Under the pieces are notes generated by a model. The model was not told the DNA's origin, made no database searches, and was given only the letters and a program-made list of their open reading frames with translations. 51,657 bases of DNA from Bacteriovoracaceae bacterium (GTDB lineage: Bacteria > Bdellovibrionota > Bacteriovoracia > Bacteriovoracales > Bacteriovoracaceae), in contig JAONMX010000006.1 in assembly GCA_028378565.1 (NCBI GenBank), forward strand, positions 1 through 51,657, given 5' to 3'. The position numbers and the translations under genes are program-made. Position 1 is the stretch's first letter. Each line of letters starts with the position of its first letter. Positions 3,478 through 45,064 of this stretch are shown here, one piece after another.

Positions 3478-4653
3478 GTGAAGTTATTTTTTAAAGTTCT
3501 TTTGGTGTTGATGTATGTAGCAAGTACGCATGGATTTGTACTTAATCCAAGAGTGGAACTTCACGAGCTGTATTATGATCAAGATATTCTTTTTGTTTCT
3601 GAAAAAATAATGCATAAAAAGACAGTAGACGGTAAAAAGAAGACTTTTGTTTACCCTTTCATAAAAGTCTATGGAGATAAAAAGTTTACCAAAGAAGTCG
3701 GAAGGTTTGATGAATCAGGTGTGAAAGTTAATAAAAAACAGGTTTGCTTTACTAATTATGTAAATATATATTACTCTATTTTATTATCTAATGGTGCGGA
3801 TCTTGGAAAGAAGACAAATGAATATATTGGAGTATTGTCTAGTCGCTTTCTTGTTCAAAACGATGATGAGTTTACAATGATTAGAAAGTTACGTTCGGAC
3901 AATAACTTTTGTAAAGATATTAGAGTTGCAGCATGGGTTAAGGATGCAAAAGAGCAGAAAGTTGGCTTGATTTTTTTTTTAAAAGATTACAATCTAGAAG
4001 AAGGTTGGATTGAGCTTTATAATAAAAACGATGAAGCAAAGCTATTTTTAAAAGTAAAAGATTTAGGTAATGTCACAACTGTTTTTGATACTTACGATAA
4101 TCCTATAAATAAAAGTGCAAAAGTTTTTCAAGATATTAAGGTGAGCTTTATTATTCCTCCATTATATAAAGTGTTTGATGAAAAACTGAAAGATAAAGAG
4201 TTGTTTGGAAAAATAAAGAACCTCGTGCAGGATTATTATTCAATTTTAGAAGAGAATTGTTCAGGAGTTAAGAATTTAAATGTCTCGAGAGAGTTGAATT
4301 GTTTGAAATGCGGAAAACGTAAACAACTTGAACTTGTAAAAGAAATTTTAACAAAGAAAGATGTTCAAGCTTTTAGTGAAATGGTTGCAAGCTTTAATAA
4401 TATGTGTAGAGGTTTAGATTTTAAAAGATGGAGCAGAGAGAAAATTCTTGTTGATTATTCAGAGGGTGCAGAGAGTAGTATCATTGGAATGCTTAAGGCC
4501 ATAGAAAAAATTAATACAAAAAAAGAGGATAAAATATCAATAAAGGTGTTAATGCCATCGCATTCTTCTGTATTTCTAGTTACGAATATTAGACGTGATC
4601 CACGTTATGAGTTCAACATTGTTATTGAAAAAGTTAATGAAAAGTCTATTTAG
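3478..4653 (+). CDS. secreted protein of unknown function
   Basis: The start is GTG at 3478, preceded by AGGACAAGAATAGGAG. The 391-residue protein begins with a basic residue and a hydrophobic stretch (MKLFFKVLLVLMYVASTHG), a Sec signal peptide. The mature part is lysine-rich, with a cysteine cluster near residues 261-280 (NCSGV, NCLKCGK) and single cysteines elsewhere, which could form disulfides in the periplasm. I recognise no family. It lies 20 bp after the LAS-like gene and is probably co-transcribed with it, so it may have been a partner of that enzyme. Confidence 0.7.
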   Translation: MKLFFKVLLVLMYVASTHGFVLNPRVELHELYYDQDILFVSEKIMHKKTVDGKKKTFVYPFIKVYGDKKFTKEVGRFDESGVKVNKKQVCFTNYVNIYYSILLSNGADLGKKTNEYIGVLSSRFLVQNDDEFTMIRKLRSDNNFCKDIRVAAWVKDAKEQKVGLIFFLKDYNLEEGWIELYNKNDEAKLFLKVKDLGNVTTVFDTYDNPINKSAKVFQDIKVSFIIPPLYKVFDEKLKDKELFGKIKNLVQDYYSILEENCSGVKNLNVSRELNCLKCGKRKQLELVKEILTKKDVQAFSEMVASFNNMCRGLDFKRWSREKILVDYSEGAESSIIGMLKAIEKINTKKEDKISIKVLMPSHSSVFLVTNIRRDPRYEFNIVIEKVNEKSI

Positions 4654-11816: not shown

Positions 11817-12077
11817 ATGAAAGTTTCTATCTTTATAATGTTTTTATTAGCAGCTAATACTTTTGCAGTAGAAGATGAACGGCCATCTGGGGTTTATGAT
11901 GGTGTTTATCATGTAGCAAAATCAACTTCACAGGAATTTAACTACGACCTCGATGCAGTAAGGCTGGCCCATAAGATAGTTTGTAGTGATAAGTTTTCAC
12001 CTAAGCTTAATTTCTCAAAAGAGTATTTTGAACTTCATAGCACTTCTTATCTAAATGATAATGTTGAAAAAAAATAA
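11817..12077 (+). CDS. secreted protein, 5' part of a gene split at a slippery A-run
   Basis: 86 residues starting with a signal peptide (MKVSIFIMFLLAANTFA) after the ribosome site GGGGTGAG. The frame ends GAA AAA AAA TAA. The heptamer A_AAA_AAA (12067-12074 is a run of eight A) sits in exactly the phase needed for -1 slippage right before the stop. A -1 shift continues as EKKIKEMSKHFSS into the 12083-12454 frame, which is cysteine-rich and has no export signal of its own. The two therefore probably make one exported protein of about 212 residues when slippage occurs (ribosomal or by RNA polymerase), or the run has lost one A. Family unknown. It is driven by a sigma28-like promoter. Confidence 0.6.
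   Translation: MKVSIFIMFLLAANTFAVEDERPSGVYDGVYHVAKSTSQEFNYDLDAVRLAHKIVCSDKFSPKLNFSKEYFELHSTSYLNDNVEKK
12067..12077 (+). other. in-phase A_AAA_AAA slippery heptamer before a stop codon
   Basis: The eight A at 12067-12074 followed by TAA read as gaA AAA AAA taa in the upstream frame, the canonical -1 slippery arrangement. After slipping, the next codons are ATA AAA GAA ATG and the downstream frame stays open to 12454. Only a weak possible downstream stem (ACACT with AGTGT about 20 nt later) is seen, so transcriptional slippage is as likely as a ribosomal one. Confidence 0.5.
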
Positions 12078-12082
12078 AAGAA

Positions 12083-12454
12083 ATGTCCAAACACTTTAGC
12101 TCTGATTATAAAAAACAGTGTCAAGATAATGGATACTATTCCTTTAATGCTCAATCTTGTTTCCATAAATGTCATAATGGGTTTAAGCCCATCGATTCCT
12201 TTTTTCCAAAAAAAGAAAATATTAAAATAAAAGAAATGAAAAGTAATTGTTTATCAACATGTAGCTCTATTAGAAATAAAATAAGTAATGTCTTTGATAG
12301 TATTGATGACTTTGTTAAAAGTGATGATGCAAAAAGCAAGTTATGTAACACAGACTATAGAGGTGTGAATAATAGAAATAGGGCCCCTAAGGATGATGTC
12401 CGAAGTATTTCAGGCGATGTTGATGAAATTATTAACTCAACTTCAGATAAATAA
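12083..12454 (+). CDS. cysteine-rich C-terminal part of the same secreted protein
   Basis: 123 residues with seven cysteines in its first two thirds plus one later (QCQDNGYYSFNAQSCFHKCH, NCLSTCSS, KLCNTD), as expected for a disulfide-bonded extracytoplasmic domain, yet with no signal peptide. The ATG at 12083 has no clear ribosome site: the bases before it are the A-run and stop of the upstream frame. It is best read as the second half of the 11817 gene reached by a -1 shift. The C-terminal tail is acidic and disordered-looking. It converges on the NamZ gene 16 bp away. Confidence 0.55.
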   Translation: MSKHFSSDYKKQCQDNGYYSFNAQSCFHKCHNGFKPIDSFFPKKENIKIKEMKSNCLSTCSSIRNKISNVFDSIDDFVKSDDAKSKLCNTDYRGVNNRNRAPKDDVRSISGDVDEIINSTSDK

Positions 12455-12470: not shown

Positions 12471-13655
12471 TTAGTATAAAAGTATTGAACCACGGTTTTT
12501 TACGAAATCGTCTAAAGAGTCACTGCAAATAGCATTAAGCTCTCCCAATGATCCTTTCTTTTCCACCCATTCACGAAGCTTTGTTGTGCCGTTGATGTAG
12601 TCGATGGCCAGATTTTCATATTGATATTCATAAGGCTGATCATTCCATTTAAAATCGAAATATTTTTGGTGATAAGATTCTTGAAGAAGAAGTTGACCTA
12701 GTTTCCAACTTTCAAATTTATGATGATCGGTGCAGTGAATATGAACACCGCCACAATTTTCACCAGAATGTTTTTGAAACATAGGATAGAACTGGAGTGG
12801 CCTGAGAACGAAACCTTCTAACTTCCATTCTTTAACTTTTTGATTGAGATGGTCGCACCATTCATAAGCGTCGATTTTAGGAGCACCAATAACCTCTAGC
12901 GCTCTCGTTGTTCCTCGTCCTTCTGAAATATTTGTCCCTTCAAAGAGAACTGTTCCACAAAAAGATAGAGCAGAGTTGGGAGTGGAAAGATTAGGGCTTG
13001 GATTAACCCAAGGAAGACCGGTCTCATCCCAGCTCATAGAGCGTTTCCAATTTTCCATTTGAATAACATGGTAGTCACATTCAAGATCAAAATGCTTGAG
13101 ATGAAAATGACCAACTTCTCCCATGGTCATAGCATGTCTCATAGGTATAGGGAGATGGCCGACAAAAGATTTCCACTCGGGTTCTAGGATATTTCCTTCA
13201 ATCATCTCGCCACCAACAGGGTTAGGACGATCGAGGACAATAACGCGTTTTCCAAGCTTAGCAGCTTGATCAAGCACATAACTGAGAGTTGTAATATAAG
13301 TATAAACTCGGGTACCAACATCTTGTAGATCAACAACAATGGTATCAATTCCCTCCATCATTTTTTCAGACGGAACTCGGGTTTCTCCGTACAGGCTTTC
13401 TATCGGCAGATCAAAGTAGGGGTGGTGAAAGTTAGAGCTTTCCACCATGTTATCTTGGACGTCAGTAACAAAACCGTGTTGAGGACCCCAAATCTTCTTT
13501 AAGCGTGCCCCTAATATATCTTTCAATACTAAGACACCTATTTTAAAGTTTTGATCCACAGATGCCGAATGGCATAGGTAGGCAACATTACCCAATAAGA
13601 GTTTTTGCTTTTCAGTATTCTGAGATAAGACCTCAAGTCCAGTTAATGTCATAGT
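12471..13655 (-). CDS. namZ: NamZ-like exo-beta-N-acetylmuramidase (DUF1343), without signal peptide
   Basis: I use the ATG at 13655, preceded by GGAGG, rather than the upstream in-frame codon at 13700. The 394-residue protein has the DUF1343 blocks in order: KKIWGPQHGF, DTIVVDLQDVGTRVYTYI, VIVLDRPNPVGG and EGNILEP, FVGHLPIPMRHAMTMGE, GLPWVNPSPNLSTPNSAL and the very characteristic LFEGTNISEGRGTTRALE. NamZ releases terminal MurNAc from peptidoglycan fragments. Characterised members are usually exported, but this one starts MTLTGLEVLSQNTEKQ with no signal, which suggests a cytoplasmic role in recycling muropeptides. It is divergent from the START-domain gene. Confidence 0.88.
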   Translation of the reverse strand, partial: TMTLTGLEVLSQNTEKQKLLLGNVAYLCHSASVDQNFKIGVLVLKDILGARLKKIWGPQHGFVTDVQDNMVESSNFHHPYFDLPIESLYGETRVPSEKMMEGIDTIVVDLQDVGTRVYTYITTLSYVLDQAAKLGKRVIVLDRPNPVGGEMIEGNILEPEWKSFVGHLPIPMRHAMTMGEVGHFHLKHFDLECDYHVIQMENWKRSMSWDETGLPWVNPSPNLSTPNSALSFCGTVLFEGTNISEGRGTTRALEVIGAPKIDAYEWCDHLNQKVKEWKLEGFVLRPLQFYPMFQKHSGENCGGVHIHCTDHHKFESWKLGQLLLQESYHQKYFDFKWNDQPYEYQYENLAIDYINGTTKLREWVEKKGSLGELNAICSDSLDDFVKNRGSILLY

Positions 13656-13733
13656 GCCTCCGTAAAGTTTAATATTAATGGGAAACTTTTGTTCCAACAA
13701 GTTGAGATGACGTTATTTTGGTAAAATAATTTG

Positions 13734-16379: not shown

Positions 16380-17531
16380 ATGAAGCACGTTGCTGGAATA
16401 ATATTATTACTACTATCTATCAGTACTTTTTCACAATTTGATGGTGATTCAGACACTAGAACAGATATGCAAAGAGATGCTGGAAAGATTGAATGCCGGA
16501 ATGAAGTTTCGCGATGTACTTATTCAACTCAGCACTTAACGGCCAGAACACTTGTTAGTCGAATTGAAGCAGTTCTGAAGCCAGGTGACATCATTACCCC
16601 AAAAGAAGGTTATGTTAGTGTTGAAGGTCTTAAGGTTATTTCTTACTGGTTTTATAATGAAGAATTAAAAACAAGATTTGAAGCACTCCTTCCACTCCTT
16701 GATGTACTTGAAGACGGTGTTCCATCTCATCTTGTACAACTGACCACAGAAATTTATTCACTTTCTGATAGAGGGCTAAAGAGTATTGATGCAAGCATTA
16801 GTAGTGCTGGTGGAGATGCTCAGGATGGTCCAGATTGGGACTTTTCTGATCTTGGTGGAATTCTTGATATGAATCTCAATGTTGGAACAAAGCTGCTATC
16901 GATGCTCTTAAGTGGCTCAGTTACTCGAAGCGAATCTTCACAAGTAACAAAAGTCGTTCAGTTGATCCCAAACTTTGCAGGTGTTAACTATAAAAGAACA
17001 ACAAAAATTTATATTTCTCCTACAGCAGGTTCTGTAAAAGAAAAAGAAGCAGGTCTGACTATTGGTGGAACAGTAAGTATTAATGCTCGTGATAATAACC
17101 TCGTTACTATAAAAGATTATAATTTTAAATACGGAGTTCTTAAGCCTGGACTTGATGACAGTGATAATGATCAGGTGACAATTCTTAATGTCTCAAACCC
17201 GCAACTCTATCTTTATAAAGATGTAAATACGATGATTGTCTCTTCTCAAACAAGTACGACAATGAATGATCGTGGTTTTCGTTTCTTTGGTTTTGGAGCA
17301 TCTAAATCGAAGACTTTTAGTAAGTTGATGGTAGTAACGCGTGCGAAGGCCATTAAGTTTGATGACTATAGAAAAGAGATGAAGAAGTATGCTGATCTCG
17401 TTCTCTTTAAGACCTTCAGTGAAACTCAAGTGGATAATATTCCAACTAAGAACTCTAATATTGAAGCAGTTCTCAATAGTCTTAAGCCTTATACTTATAT
17501 GACGACTTCAGGTAGGCGACTAGGCGACTAG
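16380..17531 (+). CDS. exported protein, possibly secretin-like; 3' end displaced by a tandem duplication
   Basis: Signal peptide MKHVAGIILLLLSISTFS; ribosome site GGAGTCTCT. The 383 residues end early (TTSGRRLGD) because the 8-bp unit TAGGCGAC is present twice at 17513-17528. Removing one copy, and one copy of the 11-bp duplication at 17708-17729, restores an open frame to a TAA at 17803-17805 that overlaps the next ATG as TAATG, giving a 468-residue protein. Strand-rich blocks (HLVQLTTEIYSLSDRGL, TRSESSQVTKVVQLIPNFAGV, KTFSKLMVVTRAKAI) faintly recall the core of secretins, with the VVTRA stretch where secretins have LVVLITP; I hold this loosely. It heads a three-gene operon of exported proteins. 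Confidence 0.6.
   Translation: MKHVAGIILLLLSISTFSQFDGDSDTRTDMQRDAGKIECRNEVSRCTYSTQHLTARTLVSRIEAVLKPGDIITPKEGYVSVEGLKVISYWFYNEELKTRFEALLPLLDVLEDGVPSHLVQLTTEIYSLSDRGLKSIDASISSAGGDAQDGPDWDFSDLGGILDMNLNVGTKLLSMLLSGSVTRSESSQVTKVVQLIPNFAGVNYKRTTKIYISPTAGSVKEKEAGLTIGGTVSINARDNNLVTIKDYNFKYGVLKPGLDDSDNDQVTILNVSNPQLYLYKDVNTMIVSSQTSTTMNDRGFRFFGFGASKSKTFSKLMVVTRAKAIKFDDYRKEMKKYADLVLFKTFSETQVDNIPTKNSNIEAVLNSLKPYTYMTTSGRRLGD
17513..17528 (+). repeat. 8-bp tandem duplication (TAGGCGAC x2) causing a frameshift
   Basis: Two perfect adjacent copies, followed by TAG. With one copy the frame reads GRRLVGLRLDPKFAAKDN and onward; with two it stops at 17531. Confidence 0.8.
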
Positions 17532-17805
17532 TTGGATTTAGACTAGATCCTAAGTTTGCTGCAAAAGATAATATTAAGAGAAATTTTGATATTAGTATTC
17601 GTGGTGGTGGTATCAAAATGAAGAAAACAAGATCAGTTGAAAATCTTATGTTAAGTGGTTTTAAATTTGATGAATTTTCTGAAAGATACTTAAGTAAGAG
17701 TAGGTTTAAAATTAAAATAAAATTAAAATAAAAGAATTTAACGGAACTGGTAGCTATTCTAAAAAATTCTATTATGACCCAGAAAGAAATGTTTTTATTA
17801 AATAA
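17532..17805 (+). pseudogene. displaced 3' part of the 16380 gene
   Basis: Read in the restored frame, this stretch gives 87 further residues, including RLDPKFAAKDNIKRNFDISI, a glycine turn, RSVENLMLSGFKFDEFSERY and the terminal FYYDPERNVFIK. The last 27 are in frame only if the 11-bp repeat at 17708-17729 is also reduced to one copy. The restored stop overlaps the ATG of the next gene by one base, a coupling pattern common in this window, which supports this as the original end. As sequenced it has no start and is not translated from its own signals. Confidence 0.65.
17708..17729 (+). repeat. 11-bp tandem duplication (AAAATTAAAAT x2)
   Basis: Two perfect adjacent copies in the 3' part of the 16380 gene. 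One copy gives KIKIKEFNGTGSYSKK in frame; the second copy creates a premature TAA at about 17729. Confidence 0.8.
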
Positions 17806-36665: not shown

Positions 36666-37573
36666 GCTTTTTCGTATTCACTCATTAAGTTTGTAACTAA
36701 TTCTTGGCAGGTGAGTTGCTCTTTTATCATAGCACTCACTTGACCAATCTCAAGTTCACCATTATCAAGATCGCCTTCTAGCATTCCTGCTTTTGCACGG
36801 CCCTTTCCAAGTAATTTGATAAATTCTTCTTTTGAAGCACAAGAGCTTTCTAATTTCTCAACTTCTTCAAAAAATTTATTTTTTAATAATCTTACGGGAA
36901 CAACATTTTTCATCATTAATTTGGTATCTCCAAATTGCGAGTCGATGATTGCTTGTTGAAAGTTTTGATGGGCAGAAGATTCTTTTGTCACGGCGAAGCG
37001 AGTTCCTATTTGAACACCACTGGCCCCGAGTGCGATAGTCGCCATCATCTGTCTACCGTCAGCAATTCCGCCTGCTGCAATCACGGGAATACTAACAGCA
37101 TCAACCACTTGTGGAATGAGTGACATGGTTGTTATTTCTTCTCTTCCGTTATGACCTCCGGCCTCAAATCCTTCGGCCACTATGGCATCAACTCCTGCAT
37201 CTTCGCATTTTTTTGCAAGCAAAGGTGATGAAGTGACATGAACAACGGTGGCTCCGTGATTTTTAAGAAATTTTGTATATTTCTTAGGACTACCTGCACT
37301 AGTAAAGAAAATACTAATTCCTTCCTGCAGACATGTTTCTAATTGCTCTTCCACTCCATGATAAAGAAGGGGAACATTGACTCCAAATGGATTCGTGGTC
37401 AGAGACTTTGCTTTTTGGATATGAGTTTTTAATAGTTCCGGCTTCATACTACCGGCTCCAATAAGACCTAATGCTCCAGCATTACTTGCAGCCGCTGCTA
37501 GCTTACCACCAGAGACCCAGACCATTCCTGCTTGTATGATAGGGTATTTAATTTTGAAAAGTTTGGTAATCAC
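36626..37573 (-). CDS. fabK: FabK-type enoyl-ACP reductase II / nitronate monooxygenase family
   Basis: 315 residues from GTG at 37573 (GTGA overlap with the upstream stop). FMN TIM-barrel: KYPIIQAGMVWVSGGKLAAA, ASNAGALGLIGAGSM, TTNPFGVNVPLL, AIVAEGFEAGGHNG (the EGxEAGGHxG block shared by FabK and nitronate monooxygenases), IPVIAAGGIADGRQ and GASGVQIGTRF. The order, length and AWV-type N-terminus match FabK of firmicutes more than class I nitronate monooxygenase. It would perform the last reduction in fatty-acid elongation with NAD(P)H. No other fab genes adjoin, so the call is by similarity of motifs alone. Confidence 0.75.
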   Translation of the reverse strand: MITKLFKIKYPIIQAGMVWVSGGKLAAAASNAGALGLIGAGSMKPELLKTHIQKAKSLTTNPFGVNVPLLYHGVEEQLETCLQEGISIFFTSAGSPKKYTKFLKNHGATVVHVTSSPLLAKKCEDAGVDAIVAEGFEAGGHNGREEITTMSLIPQVVDAVSIPVIAAGGIADGRQMMATIALGASGVQIGTRFAVTKESSAHQNFQQAIIDSQFGDTKLMMKNVVPVRLLKNKFFEEVEKLESSCASKEEFIKLLGKGRAKAGMLEGDLDNGELEIGQVSAMIKEQLTCQELVTNLMSEYEKAYRNAAILLSKGG

Positions 37574-38928
37574 TTTTTCTTACGCTTTTTAAGAGTGTTT
37601 TCAAGGGCCTTAATGGCCTTCACCATTTCAGGATCAGGATATCTTGAATATAAGTCAGAGATAATTGGAGAAGGTTCTGCACCAGTTTCTTTGTATCGTA
37701 GGTGCTCTTTCACAAACTCGCAGGCCACAATAAATATTTTAGCAAGGCCTGGTATATCGGCACTATTAGTTACACTAAAGCCTTTACCATTGGAGGCACC
37801 ATGATGATGCTTAATTACAATATCAGTTCCCTCAGGAGCACTTGGATTTTTTGTGATGAAGACACTTGCTTCAAGAGCATGATTAAAAACTAAGTCCCAA
37901 TCTTGTTCGTTTAGCTTAGAGTTCTCTAGTTGCTCGTAGGAAGTAATTTTTGCTAACTCTGGAAGTTCTACAAATGAAGTGTCACAAAAGAAAGCGGCGT
38001 AGGCCATAATTTCATGTTGTTCTTTTTTTTTTATACCGAGATAATTTAAACATTCAGAAGCTACGATGGAAACCATATGACTGTGTTGGTAGAGATAGCT
38101 TGACTTTGAGTTGATGACCTTATGAAGCAGGTTAGACATTTCTGGGGTGTTCTCAATGGTTTTAATCATAGAAGAGATAATTCCGTCAGTCAGCTGGATA
38201 GTTGCAGGAGTAAAACCAAGATTAAGAATTTCTTTAATGGCGATGTCAAAACTTTCGCTAATGATTTCGATTTGTTCGTTAATGCCTTCATTTTCAATGG
38301 CATCTTCAAGTTTTGCTACAAGCTTATCACTTAAGAAATTGGTAAAGTTGTCTTGATATTCTTTTTGTATATAGAAAAATTTTAAACCTTGTTCTAAATA
38401 TCTTTTAATGGCCTGACGACTAAACGTATCACCATTATGAATTCTTTTTACGAATTGATTTTCATCCGCCGACTTTTTAATTTTAATATAAACATCACAA
38501 CAAGTAGTCTCTAAGTTAAAGAAATAATCGATGGGAATAGGGATAAAGTCAGGTCTTATTTTTCTATTTACTTGATCAGGATTTACACCGAGTATTTTAC
38601 AAGCAGCATCGACAATCTTTTCAATGTCATGAGGGTTTTTAATACCAACGCATATTTCACTGGCAAATCCTGGGACTTCACCTAGAACGATTATTTGAGT
38701 TTCTAGTTGATGTGTTTTTATATATTTTGCAATTTGGTTAATAATATTTTCGCCATCAATCTTCTCACGACACACTACTAATTCAATGTCCGGAAGAATT
38801 GAGAGAATTGAAATAACTTCAGCAGGTAATGTTCGCGGAATAACTTCTGAGCCAGTATAAGTATTAAGGTTAATACTTATAAGGTCACTTAAATCTTTAT
38901 GTGGCTCTAATACTACTATTTGTCCCAT
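37570..38928 (-). CDS. receiver-like plus degenerate HD-GYP domain protein
   Basis: 452 residues. N-terminal ~115: receiver-like alternation (MGQIVVLEPHKDLSDLISIN, TQIIVLGEVPG) without the usual phospho-Asp pocket. Residues about 125-215 form a PilZ/sensor-like strand-rich piece. The C-terminal HD-GYP region (about 265-420) has HSHMVSIVASECLNYLG where the first His lies, but FFCDTS stands where HD is expected (Cys before Asp) and HHHGASNGKGF replaces HHE...GxGYP, so c-di-GMP hydrolysis is doubtful. A c-di-GMP-binding or scaffold role is inferred. Overlaps fabK by 4 bp; tail very basic (KKRKKK). Confidence 0.65.
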   Translation of the reverse strand: MGQIVVLEPHKDLSDLISINLNTYTGSEVIPRTLPAEVISILSILPDIELVVCREKIDGENIINQIAKYIKTHQLETQIIVLGEVPGFASEICVGIKNPHDIEKIVDAACKILGVNPDQVNRKIRPDFIPIPIDYFFNLETTCCDVYIKIKKSADENQFVKRIHNGDTFSRQAIKRYLEQGLKFFYIQKEYQDNFTNFLSDKLVAKLEDAIENEGINEQIEIISESFDIAIKEILNLGFTPATIQLTDGIISSMIKTIENTPEMSNLLHKVINSKSSYLYQHSHMVSIVASECLNYLGIKKKEQHEIMAYAAFFCDTSFVELPELAKITSYEQLENSKLNEQDWDLVFNHALEASVFITKNPSAPEGTDIVIKHHHGASNGKGFSVTNSADIPGLAKIFIVACEFVKEHLRYKETGAEPSPIISDLYSRYPDPEMVKAIKALENTLKKRKKK

Positions 38929-42586: not shown

Positions 42587-43696
42587 ATGAGATACCTCAT
42601 TCTTACTTTGCTTATATTCATATCAAATTCTCATGCCGACATGGTCTTGTTGGGCAACGGCTGGATGAATAAATTTAGTCCTGAAGGACTTAGTAAAACT
42701 GAGAAGGCCTCTTCTTCAATTCTTTATAACTCTCAAAATAAGAAAATATATGTTCAGCAATACCCTGTCAGTATTGAGCTAGGCAGTACCGAAGATTTAA
42801 CAACTTTATTAAGTCAGGGTGAATTTAGTTCAACTGGGGAAAACGACTTTCCAAGCGAGGGGATTTCTGGTGAAGCCTTAGAGATCCAAAAAGATATTAT
42901 CAATATTTCTTCTGTAAATTTAGCGACACAAGGTTTGGTCTTAAAAGTTGGAGAGTCAGTTTCTTCTTGTGGGGAAAGTTCTCAATCAAGCTCATCTAAT
43001 CTTGCTGAAGTTCTTTCAACAACTCCCTGCGAATCAGTTCCTCCGATAACTTCTGATGTTGATTTATGCTCTAGAAGTAATCGACAACTAAAAGCAATGA
43101 GCTGTCTCAAGAAAGATTTCAACATGCGTGATCTTCCATCTGACTTTGAAAAGAATGAAAACTTCGATCTCTTTGCCATGCGGTTAGAAGAATCTCTAAT
43201 TAATTCGGCCATACTACCATTTGCCGCTTGTGAAGATAGAAACAAGTGTACACAGTGTGAAAGAAAATTATCGGATAGCTCAAAACATAAAATCTATAAG
43301 AAATTACTTAATAAAGAACCTGTAGAGATTCCCGGTTATCAAAGTATTGAAGAGTTCTATCAAGACAACCGTGATGGAATCAATAAGTATTTAAATCGTC
43401 GAGCGAGAAGTTACAGAACATTCCGTAGGGCCATTGGAAGAGGTCGTATTACACTTAGAAGTAGAAGAAAAGAATGGGGTAGAGATAGGGAAGAAGTTCT
43501 CACTCATTTAAATTCACTTAAGCTACAAATTGAAACCACTGGTCCTGTTACGCAACAACTTTTAACATCATTCAGGACCAAAGATAAGTCTCACCCAGTA
43601 AAGGTCCACCAAGTTCATGATGATATGTCTCTTGAAATAGAGCTAAGCTCTGGTGAGAGAACTCTCATTCCTTTTGATCGAGAGAAGGAAAAGTAA
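42587..43696 (+). CDS. exported protein of unknown function, partner of the 43718 gene
   Basis: 369 residues: signal peptide MRYLILTLLIFISNSHA, then a serine-rich low-complexity region (EKASSSILYNSQ, SSCGESSQSSSSNLAEVLS) and a C-terminal basic helical domain (YLNRRARSYRTFRRAIGRGR). Nine cysteines, several in pairs (DLCSRSNRQLKAMSCLKK, AACEDRNKCTQCERK) that suggest two disulfides or a small metal knot. It is preceded by a sigma28-like promoter and no ribosome site, and followed after 21 bp by a permuted-NlpC-like gene; the pair may be an enzyme and its binding or immunity partner. Confidence 0.62.
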   Translation: MRYLILTLLIFISNSHADMVLLGNGWMNKFSPEGLSKTEKASSSILYNSQNKKIYVQQYPVSIELGSTEDLTTLLSQGEFSSTGENDFPSEGISGEALEIQKDIINISSVNLATQGLVLKVGESVSSCGESSQSSSSNLAEVLSTTPCESVPPITSDVDLCSRSNRQLKAMSCLKKDFNMRDLPSDFEKNENFDLFAMRLEESLINSAILPFAACEDRNKCTQCERKLSDSSKHKIYKKLLNKEPVEIPGYQSIEEFYQDNRDGINKYLNRRARSYRTFRRAIGRGRITLRSRRKEWGRDREEVLTHLNSLKLQIETTGPVTQQLLTSFRTKDKSHPVKVHQVHDDMSLEIELSSGERTLIPFDREKEK

Positions 43697-43717
43697 CTCT
43701 ATAATGGAGAAGAAGTT

Positions 43718-45064
43718 ATGGTGGCCAATCCACTTCCGACAAAGAATATGGCCAAGAGAATGTTTGGACGTTACTTAAAAGACACTTCTTTTAGCAAAGA
43801 GAGAAATGATTTTTGTGAACCACTTTTGGCCTTCACGAAAGGAAATGCGAGAAGATTAAAAGATATCTGGGGAAATCAGAACGAAGGTTTTTGGACTAGG
43901 CTTTTTAAATATCCCTTCCGTCTGGTTTATCACACTGTTAATCGTACCATTGGTGGACGTACCGTTGGGTCAGTTGGGGATTTGGCCAGGGGACAGTATC
44001 AGGACAGTATCGTAAATATTCCTATGACAGTTCATAATATTGCCATGGACGTTGGCCACTTAGCTACGGCGCCTATTGATGCCGCCTTTCCTTCAACAAA
44101 GAGAATTGAGCTCTGTACCTCCAATCTTATTTATAATTTCATGAGCCGAAACGGCAAGCTTTCAGGTAAAGATAGGGCCATCGCTTCTCTTAATCCAATA
44201 CTTCACGTAGGGGTTGTGATTGATGATCAATACGAAACAAGAGATGCTTTGATGGACAATAGTGATGGTACTCTCCGTAATGCTGAAGTAGAGGCCGATC
44301 TAGATTGTGTGAAGTTATCCATTCGATCAAATGAGCCGGAGTCTGTTGTGTTAGAAAGACTACGTTGTCTAAATGAAACTTTCGGAGGGGCCATGGGATA
44401 TAAAGATTATAGTCTCTTTGGATATAATTGTGGTGGGTATACCAGAGATATCTTGGAGGCAGCAGGTTTAAGTATGCCGGTAGGGATAAATTTTGGTATT
44501 GGTTCTGTCATTAGAAATAGAAGTGAAGAGATGGAGCGTAAATTTGAAAATGCAAAAGAGTATTGTCATAACCATATGCGATTGAGTCGTCTTATGATTA
44601 ATTCTCTTGAGAATGATACATTAACAGATCAATTCTTAGAGAGCTTTGAAGATCATGTTTTGGGAGCTCCAGCAGGCACGGGTGACTCAATGGGGATTGA
44701 TAAAGATAAAACAACTCTCTATTCTCCAAGTCCTGACTTACTTCTGCAGCTGATGATAAGTTCGGCCCGAAGTAAAGATGAAAATAATATTGGGCGAGTT
44801 AAAGAATTATTAGAAAAAATTATGAATGAGTCTGAGTCACGTGGTGGGGATGCTAAAGATAGTTATAAACTATATGATGGAGTGAAATTCTTTGATCATT
44901 TTCTAGAAGATAATGAAAGTGTTGAAGGGAAAAAGGTGGTAAAGAGAAAGTACAAGAAGCTTCTGAAAGAAATGTTCGGTGACATTAACATCGAAGAGCA
45001 ATCAAGACTTTCTCATTTCCCGGGAGCACCAGAGGTACTCCTTGCTTTAGAACAAACCCCTTAA
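43718..45064 (+). CDS. putative permuted NlpC/P60-like (YiiX/LRAT-type) protein
   Basis: 448 residues, ribosome site GGAGAAGAAG. Residues 160-250 carry the two landmarks of permuted papain-fold amidases: LNPILHVGVVIDDQY with H163 at the start of a strand, and YNCGGYTRDILEAAGL with C238 at the start of a helix, in the His-then-Cys order of YiiX, LRAT and related families. The preceding ~130 residues (IPMTVHNIAMDVGHLATAPI) contain amphipathic segments; the C-terminal ~200 are helical. No signal peptide is visible, although the upstream gene is exported. Activity (amide or ester hydrolysis, or acyl transfer) is inferred from the motif pair only. Confidence 0.55.
   Translation: MVANPLPTKNMAKRMFGRYLKDTSFSKERNDFCEPLLAFTKGNARRLKDIWGNQNEGFWTRLFKYPFRLVYHTVNRTIGGRTVGSVGDLARGQYQDSIVNIPMTVHNIAMDVGHLATAPIDAAFPSTKRIELCTSNLIYNFMSRNGKLSGKDRAIASLNPILHVGVVIDDQYETRDALMDNSDGTLRNAEVEADLDCVKLSIRSNEPESVVLERLRCLNETFGGAMGYKDYSLFGYNCGGYTRDILEAAGLSMPVGINFGIGSVIRNRSEEMERKFENAKEYCHNHMRLSRLMINSLENDTLTDQFLESFEDHVLGAPAGTGDSMGIDKDKTTLYSPSPDLLLQLMISSARSKDENNIGRVKELLEKIMNESESRGGDAKDSYKLYDGVKFFDHFLEDNESVEGKKVVKRKYKKLLKEMFGDINIEEQSRLSHFPGAPEVLLALEQTP

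Follow-up and report, generated by a model that had tools for sequence, protein, structure and literature searches.

Frames that meet at an in-phase adenine run can be read either as a site of productive slippage or as one gene that has been broken, and the question is which of the two applies to positions 11817–12454 of the DNA analyzed here. The whole stretch, hereafter called the window, has a length of 51,657 nucleotides and is contig C123 of a metagenome-assembled genome (MAG) of a Bacteriovoracaceae bacterium (1.96 Mb, 56% complete, 166 contigs).

Two reading frames meeting at an A8 run

The upstream frame (11817–12077, forward strand, 86 codons) starts with the signal-peptide-like leader MKVSIFIMFLLAANTFA, is preceded by the plausible ribosome site GGGGTGAG, and carries the first conserved cysteine. 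It ends in gaA AAA AAA taa, with the stop codon TAA at 12075–12077 directly behind the run. Read directly from the sequence, the run comprises exactly eight adenines (12067–12074), and the heptamer A_AAA_AAA at 12068–12074 lies in the zero frame and conforms to X_XXZ_ZZN. A −1 step at the A8 run leads into ATA AAA GAA ATG and onward to TAA at 12452–12454, so that 126 codons stay open after the slip. As only 95 of 52,000 composition-shuffled stretches of equal length were open, the downstream frame is not a product of chance. This second frame (12083–12454, forward strand, −1 relative to the first and open from 12074) contains six conserved cysteines, and neither a ribosome-binding site nor a signal peptide of its own was found. 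The initial annotation had described the same arrangement, i.e., an 11817 frame ending in A_AAA_AAA and taa, a −1 slip into the 12083 frame, and a cysteine-rich second frame devoid of leader and ribosome site, and in all these points the sequence agrees with it.

One intact gene in the sister species

The only other genome of the genus, the MAG Oligoflexia bacterium Ust_19, contains a homologous gene that is a single uninterrupted frame of 186 codons (G001:C60:114390-114947, in JAAEST010000061.1). The alignment passes from the first frame over the break and through the second frame to its end with 39% identity, the downstream frame itself being conserved at about 38–39%. The homologous protein carries a signal peptide, and all seven cysteines of the mature protein are common to both species, one located before and six after the break. 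At the junction the sister species reads ATGACTATCATTAATAAAATGTCA, with no A run and no interruption of the frame; about 29 residues of the upstream frame in the window are missing from its protein. Most of the window has counterparts on the same sister contig in largely the same order, and the same convergent gene, encoding the exo-beta-N-acetylmuramidase NamZ (12471–13700, reverse strand), adjoins in both species. Because of this collinear block and the shared NamZ neighbor, we regard the gene as the orthologue. The sister species has an additional gene for a secreted protein between the orthologue and NamZ (204 aa, L003 872–1486, reverse strand), which is absent at that place in the window.

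Searches of the two genomes of the genus, of 129 genomes of the family (also with a profile), and of genome contigs yielded no orthologue beyond the sister species. One match in genome G072 (E 0.005) was not accepted as a relative, as it covered about 60 positions and contained two internal stops. Neither half of the gene nor the orthologue matched a Pfam family, apart from one sub-threshold chance match (E 0.22), and the predicted structure of the orthologue, with a pLDDT of 40, is uninterpretable. By sequence comparison, the two frames are the halves of one gene for a cysteine-rich, putatively secreted protein that is not known from outside this genus. This is in line with the earlier proposal that both frames together make one cysteine-rich protein with a signal peptide, of which the orthologue is the unbroken form.

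With an intact orthologue at the same locus and an interrupted frame here, the gene has the features of a pseudogene or an indel-interrupted gene. The initial annotation had named orthologues with an uninterrupted frame and A9 in the same place as evidence against slippage; the uninterrupted frame was found, whereas instead of A9 there is no A run at all. Values of dN were about 0.62 in the upstream and downstream halves alike, and dN/dS, being near saturation for two diverged sequences, does not separate the halves. Since the downstream half shows no faster decay, any break must be very recent. Counted against an interrupted gene is that the searched genomes provided a single orthologue, which is only 39% identical.

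Broken genes and A runs elsewhere in the genome

We compared 264 non-overlapping genes of this genome with their counterparts in the sister species. Mid-gene breaks were present in 3 of 41 genes inside the window and in none of 223 outside (Fisher P = 0.0035, post hoc). The second broken gene (16380–17802, forward strand) runs through three frames, and its orthologue is intact (486 aa, 72% identical). Relative to the sister species its lesions are tandem duplications, namely an 8-bp repeat with the unit TAGGCGAC (17513–17531) and an 11-bp repeat (17707–17733). In the third (42587–45064, forward strand), an in-frame TAA at 43694–43696 separates the ORFs 42587 and 43718 (369 and 448 aa, same frame), which form one ORF of 814 aa in the sister species, and conservation persists across the stop, in the residues NGEEVMVA. 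All three genes encode a signal-like leader and belong to no Pfam family. Only the A8 gene is broken at a homopolymer, the other lesions being tandem duplications or a substitution, and 35 A/T runs of 8–10 sit in conserved genes that are unbroken at those runs. Of two candidate breaks on contig C1, one proved to be an antisense ORF and the other an over-extended start, and neither was retained. Internal stops occurred in 14 alignments of this genome; apart from the stop at 43694, all were situated within about 20 codons of an alignment end, either ahead of the probable start codon or close to the C-terminus, and were discarded.

In a genome this rich in AT, the heptamer occurs often. Across 293 kb of conserved coding sequence, an in-phase A_AAA_AAA was counted in 73 A runs within intact frames, distributed over 59 of 288 conserved genes, and 24 A8 runs lie in conserved frames. 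Within about 0.67 Mb sampled, the heptamer was located close to the end of eight ORFs (minimum 60 aa), four of which are followed by a long −1 frame. One of the four is the A8 gene; two others are shadow ORFs, and the last is an ordinary overlap of genes of the SufS/NifU type, which leaves the A8 gene as the only split gene of such shape in the sample. Regarding stimulatory elements, the 101 nt downstream are no more prone to folding than shuffled sequences (z 0.24; 115 of 200 shuffles equal them), and inspection of the upstream 20 nt by eye revealed no Shine–Dalgarno (SD)-like stimulator. Neither the motif nor the frame transition is conserved in the single orthologue found.

Mutation, assembly error, and slippage

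The evidence argues strongly for one secreted-protein gene whose frame was broken by a length change of the A run, without the break being programmed. In the GeneTack scheme, the case belongs to the singleton transitions for which an intact homologue exists, a class expected to represent sequencing error or a recent indel (PMC3711429). We judge that the break is somewhat more probably a real, recent indel of this lineage than anything else, and a real mutation is more likely than an assembly error. According to the latter explanation, which retains a substantial though smaller share of the probability, the true gene is uninterrupted and the A run was called at the wrong length. The incomplete, fragmented MAG and the intact frame of the sister species are compatible with such an error, as is the expectation of the GeneTack authors that BLAST-supported singletons are mostly sequencing errors (PMC3711429). 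Against it stand the 35 long A/T runs that are unbroken inside conserved frames, the lack of mid-gene breaks in the 223 genes outside the window, and the neighboring breaks, which are tandem duplications and a substitution rather than homopolymer errors. With three breaks in the window and none in 223 genes elsewhere, actual decay of dispensable genes explains the pattern better than an assembly of poor overall quality, although a local misassembly may still have contributed. If the indel is real, a one-base length change in the A8 run would disrupt an ordinary secreted-protein gene; normal translation would stop at 12075, yielding the leader and a fragment of 69 residues and nothing more, so that most of the product would be a leader piece without use. 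Homonucleotide repeats often acquire indels, and these are also bypassed, 8A included (PMC3812077). Judging from published work, A8 may be leaky for both RNA polymerase and ribosomes, by which some full-length protein may arise, and a low-level, incidental bypass is plausible.

Programmed or selected slippage, either by −1 ribosomal frameshifting or by an A added by RNA polymerase, would produce a short secreted peptide and a full-length, disulfide-rich protein. The in-phase heptamer directly ahead of the stop and the −1 frame leading into the rest of the gene fit this scheme, and slippage at A runs is known from tssM of C. rodentium (11 As; PMC4256274) and from IS elements (8–9 As; PMC1088944). 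It nevertheless appears very unlikely to us, given that the orthologue has an uninterrupted frame without the motif, that neither an SD-like stimulator nor a structure was found, that 59 intact conserved genes contain the same heptamer, and that the other broken genes of the window have lesions which slippage cannot repair. Motif constructs without a stimulator in E. coli shift at most about tenfold over a background near 0.05% (PMC4066793). With regard to RNA polymerase, selection against slippage usually becomes apparent in runs of nine bases, although eight may suffice in some species (PMC1088944); efficient slippage in bacteria usually involves nine or more, and the run here has eight. The productive slippage proposed by the initial annotation is thus not borne out, the orthologue being uninterrupted, the motif unconserved, and a stimulator lacking. 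Slightly less probable still is that slippage at A8 was selected specifically in this lineage, in a secreted, cysteine-rich protein restricted to the genus, and sets a fixed ratio of short secreted peptide to full-length protein. The alternative of a contingency tract, also raised at the outset, assumes that cells differ in the length of the A8 tract and that the secreted protein is thereby switched on or off. Phase switches typically reside in a homopolymer near the beginning of a gene for a surface or secreted protein. Replication slippage increases with repeat length (PMC3812077). But the orthologue has no A run, the tract is represented by one copy in one assembly, a run of eight As is short and frequent in the coding sequence of this genome, and the long A/T runs in unbroken conserved genes likewise give no positive evidence for switching; we consider phase variation about as improbable as programmed slippage. 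Least credible of all are two separate genes, of which the downstream one would be translated by termination-reinitiation from ATG 12083. The short distance of 5 bases between the stop and this ATG would suit such a mechanism, yet the second ORF has no ribosome site, its cysteine-rich product would have no signal peptide, and the orthologue is a single chain.

Among known systems, the gene resembles frameshifted pseudogenes and the GeneTack fs-gene singletons, in which a single genome shows the frame transition, an intact homologue exists elsewhere, and a conserved recoding motif is missing (PMC3711429); it differs in that its break lies in a homopolymer, where a slight leaky bypass could occur. 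In pseudo-pseudogenes (Baranov et al. 2005, PMC1088944), too, the frame is interrupted at an A run and slippage would restore the protein; in contrast, the A8 run falls below the nine-base length usual for selection against slippage. The tssM1 gene of Citrobacter rodentium likewise has a poly-A run before a premature stop, with slippage giving short and full-length products; its run comprises 11 As with a measured transcriptional frameshifting of 20–25% (PMC4256274), whereas the gene described here has 8 unconserved As. With −1 programmed frameshifting at X_XXZ_ZZN, as in dnaX and IS elements, it shares the heptamer in the correct phase, but it is neither dnaX nor a mobile element and lacks both stimulator and conservation.

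Annotations should join both ORFs into a single interrupted gene; the case has little importance beyond that. It does call for caution, as an in-phase A_AAA_AAA before a stop is weak evidence for recoding in an AT-rich genome unless it is common to orthologues. Three broken orphan genes for secreted proteins on one 51-kb contig are a mild hint of relaxed selection on genes of this type in this lineage. Regarding other long runs, A/T runs of at least 8 were about twice as frequent per Mb in samples of this genome as in those of the sister species, with only slightly lower GC. The window also contains two T10 runs: one (3971–3980) lies inside ORF 3478–4653, for which no counterpart was found within the sampled sequence of the sister species, and the other (38023–38032) lies inside ORF 37570–38928 on the reverse strand, the frame of which is intact relative to its orthologue.
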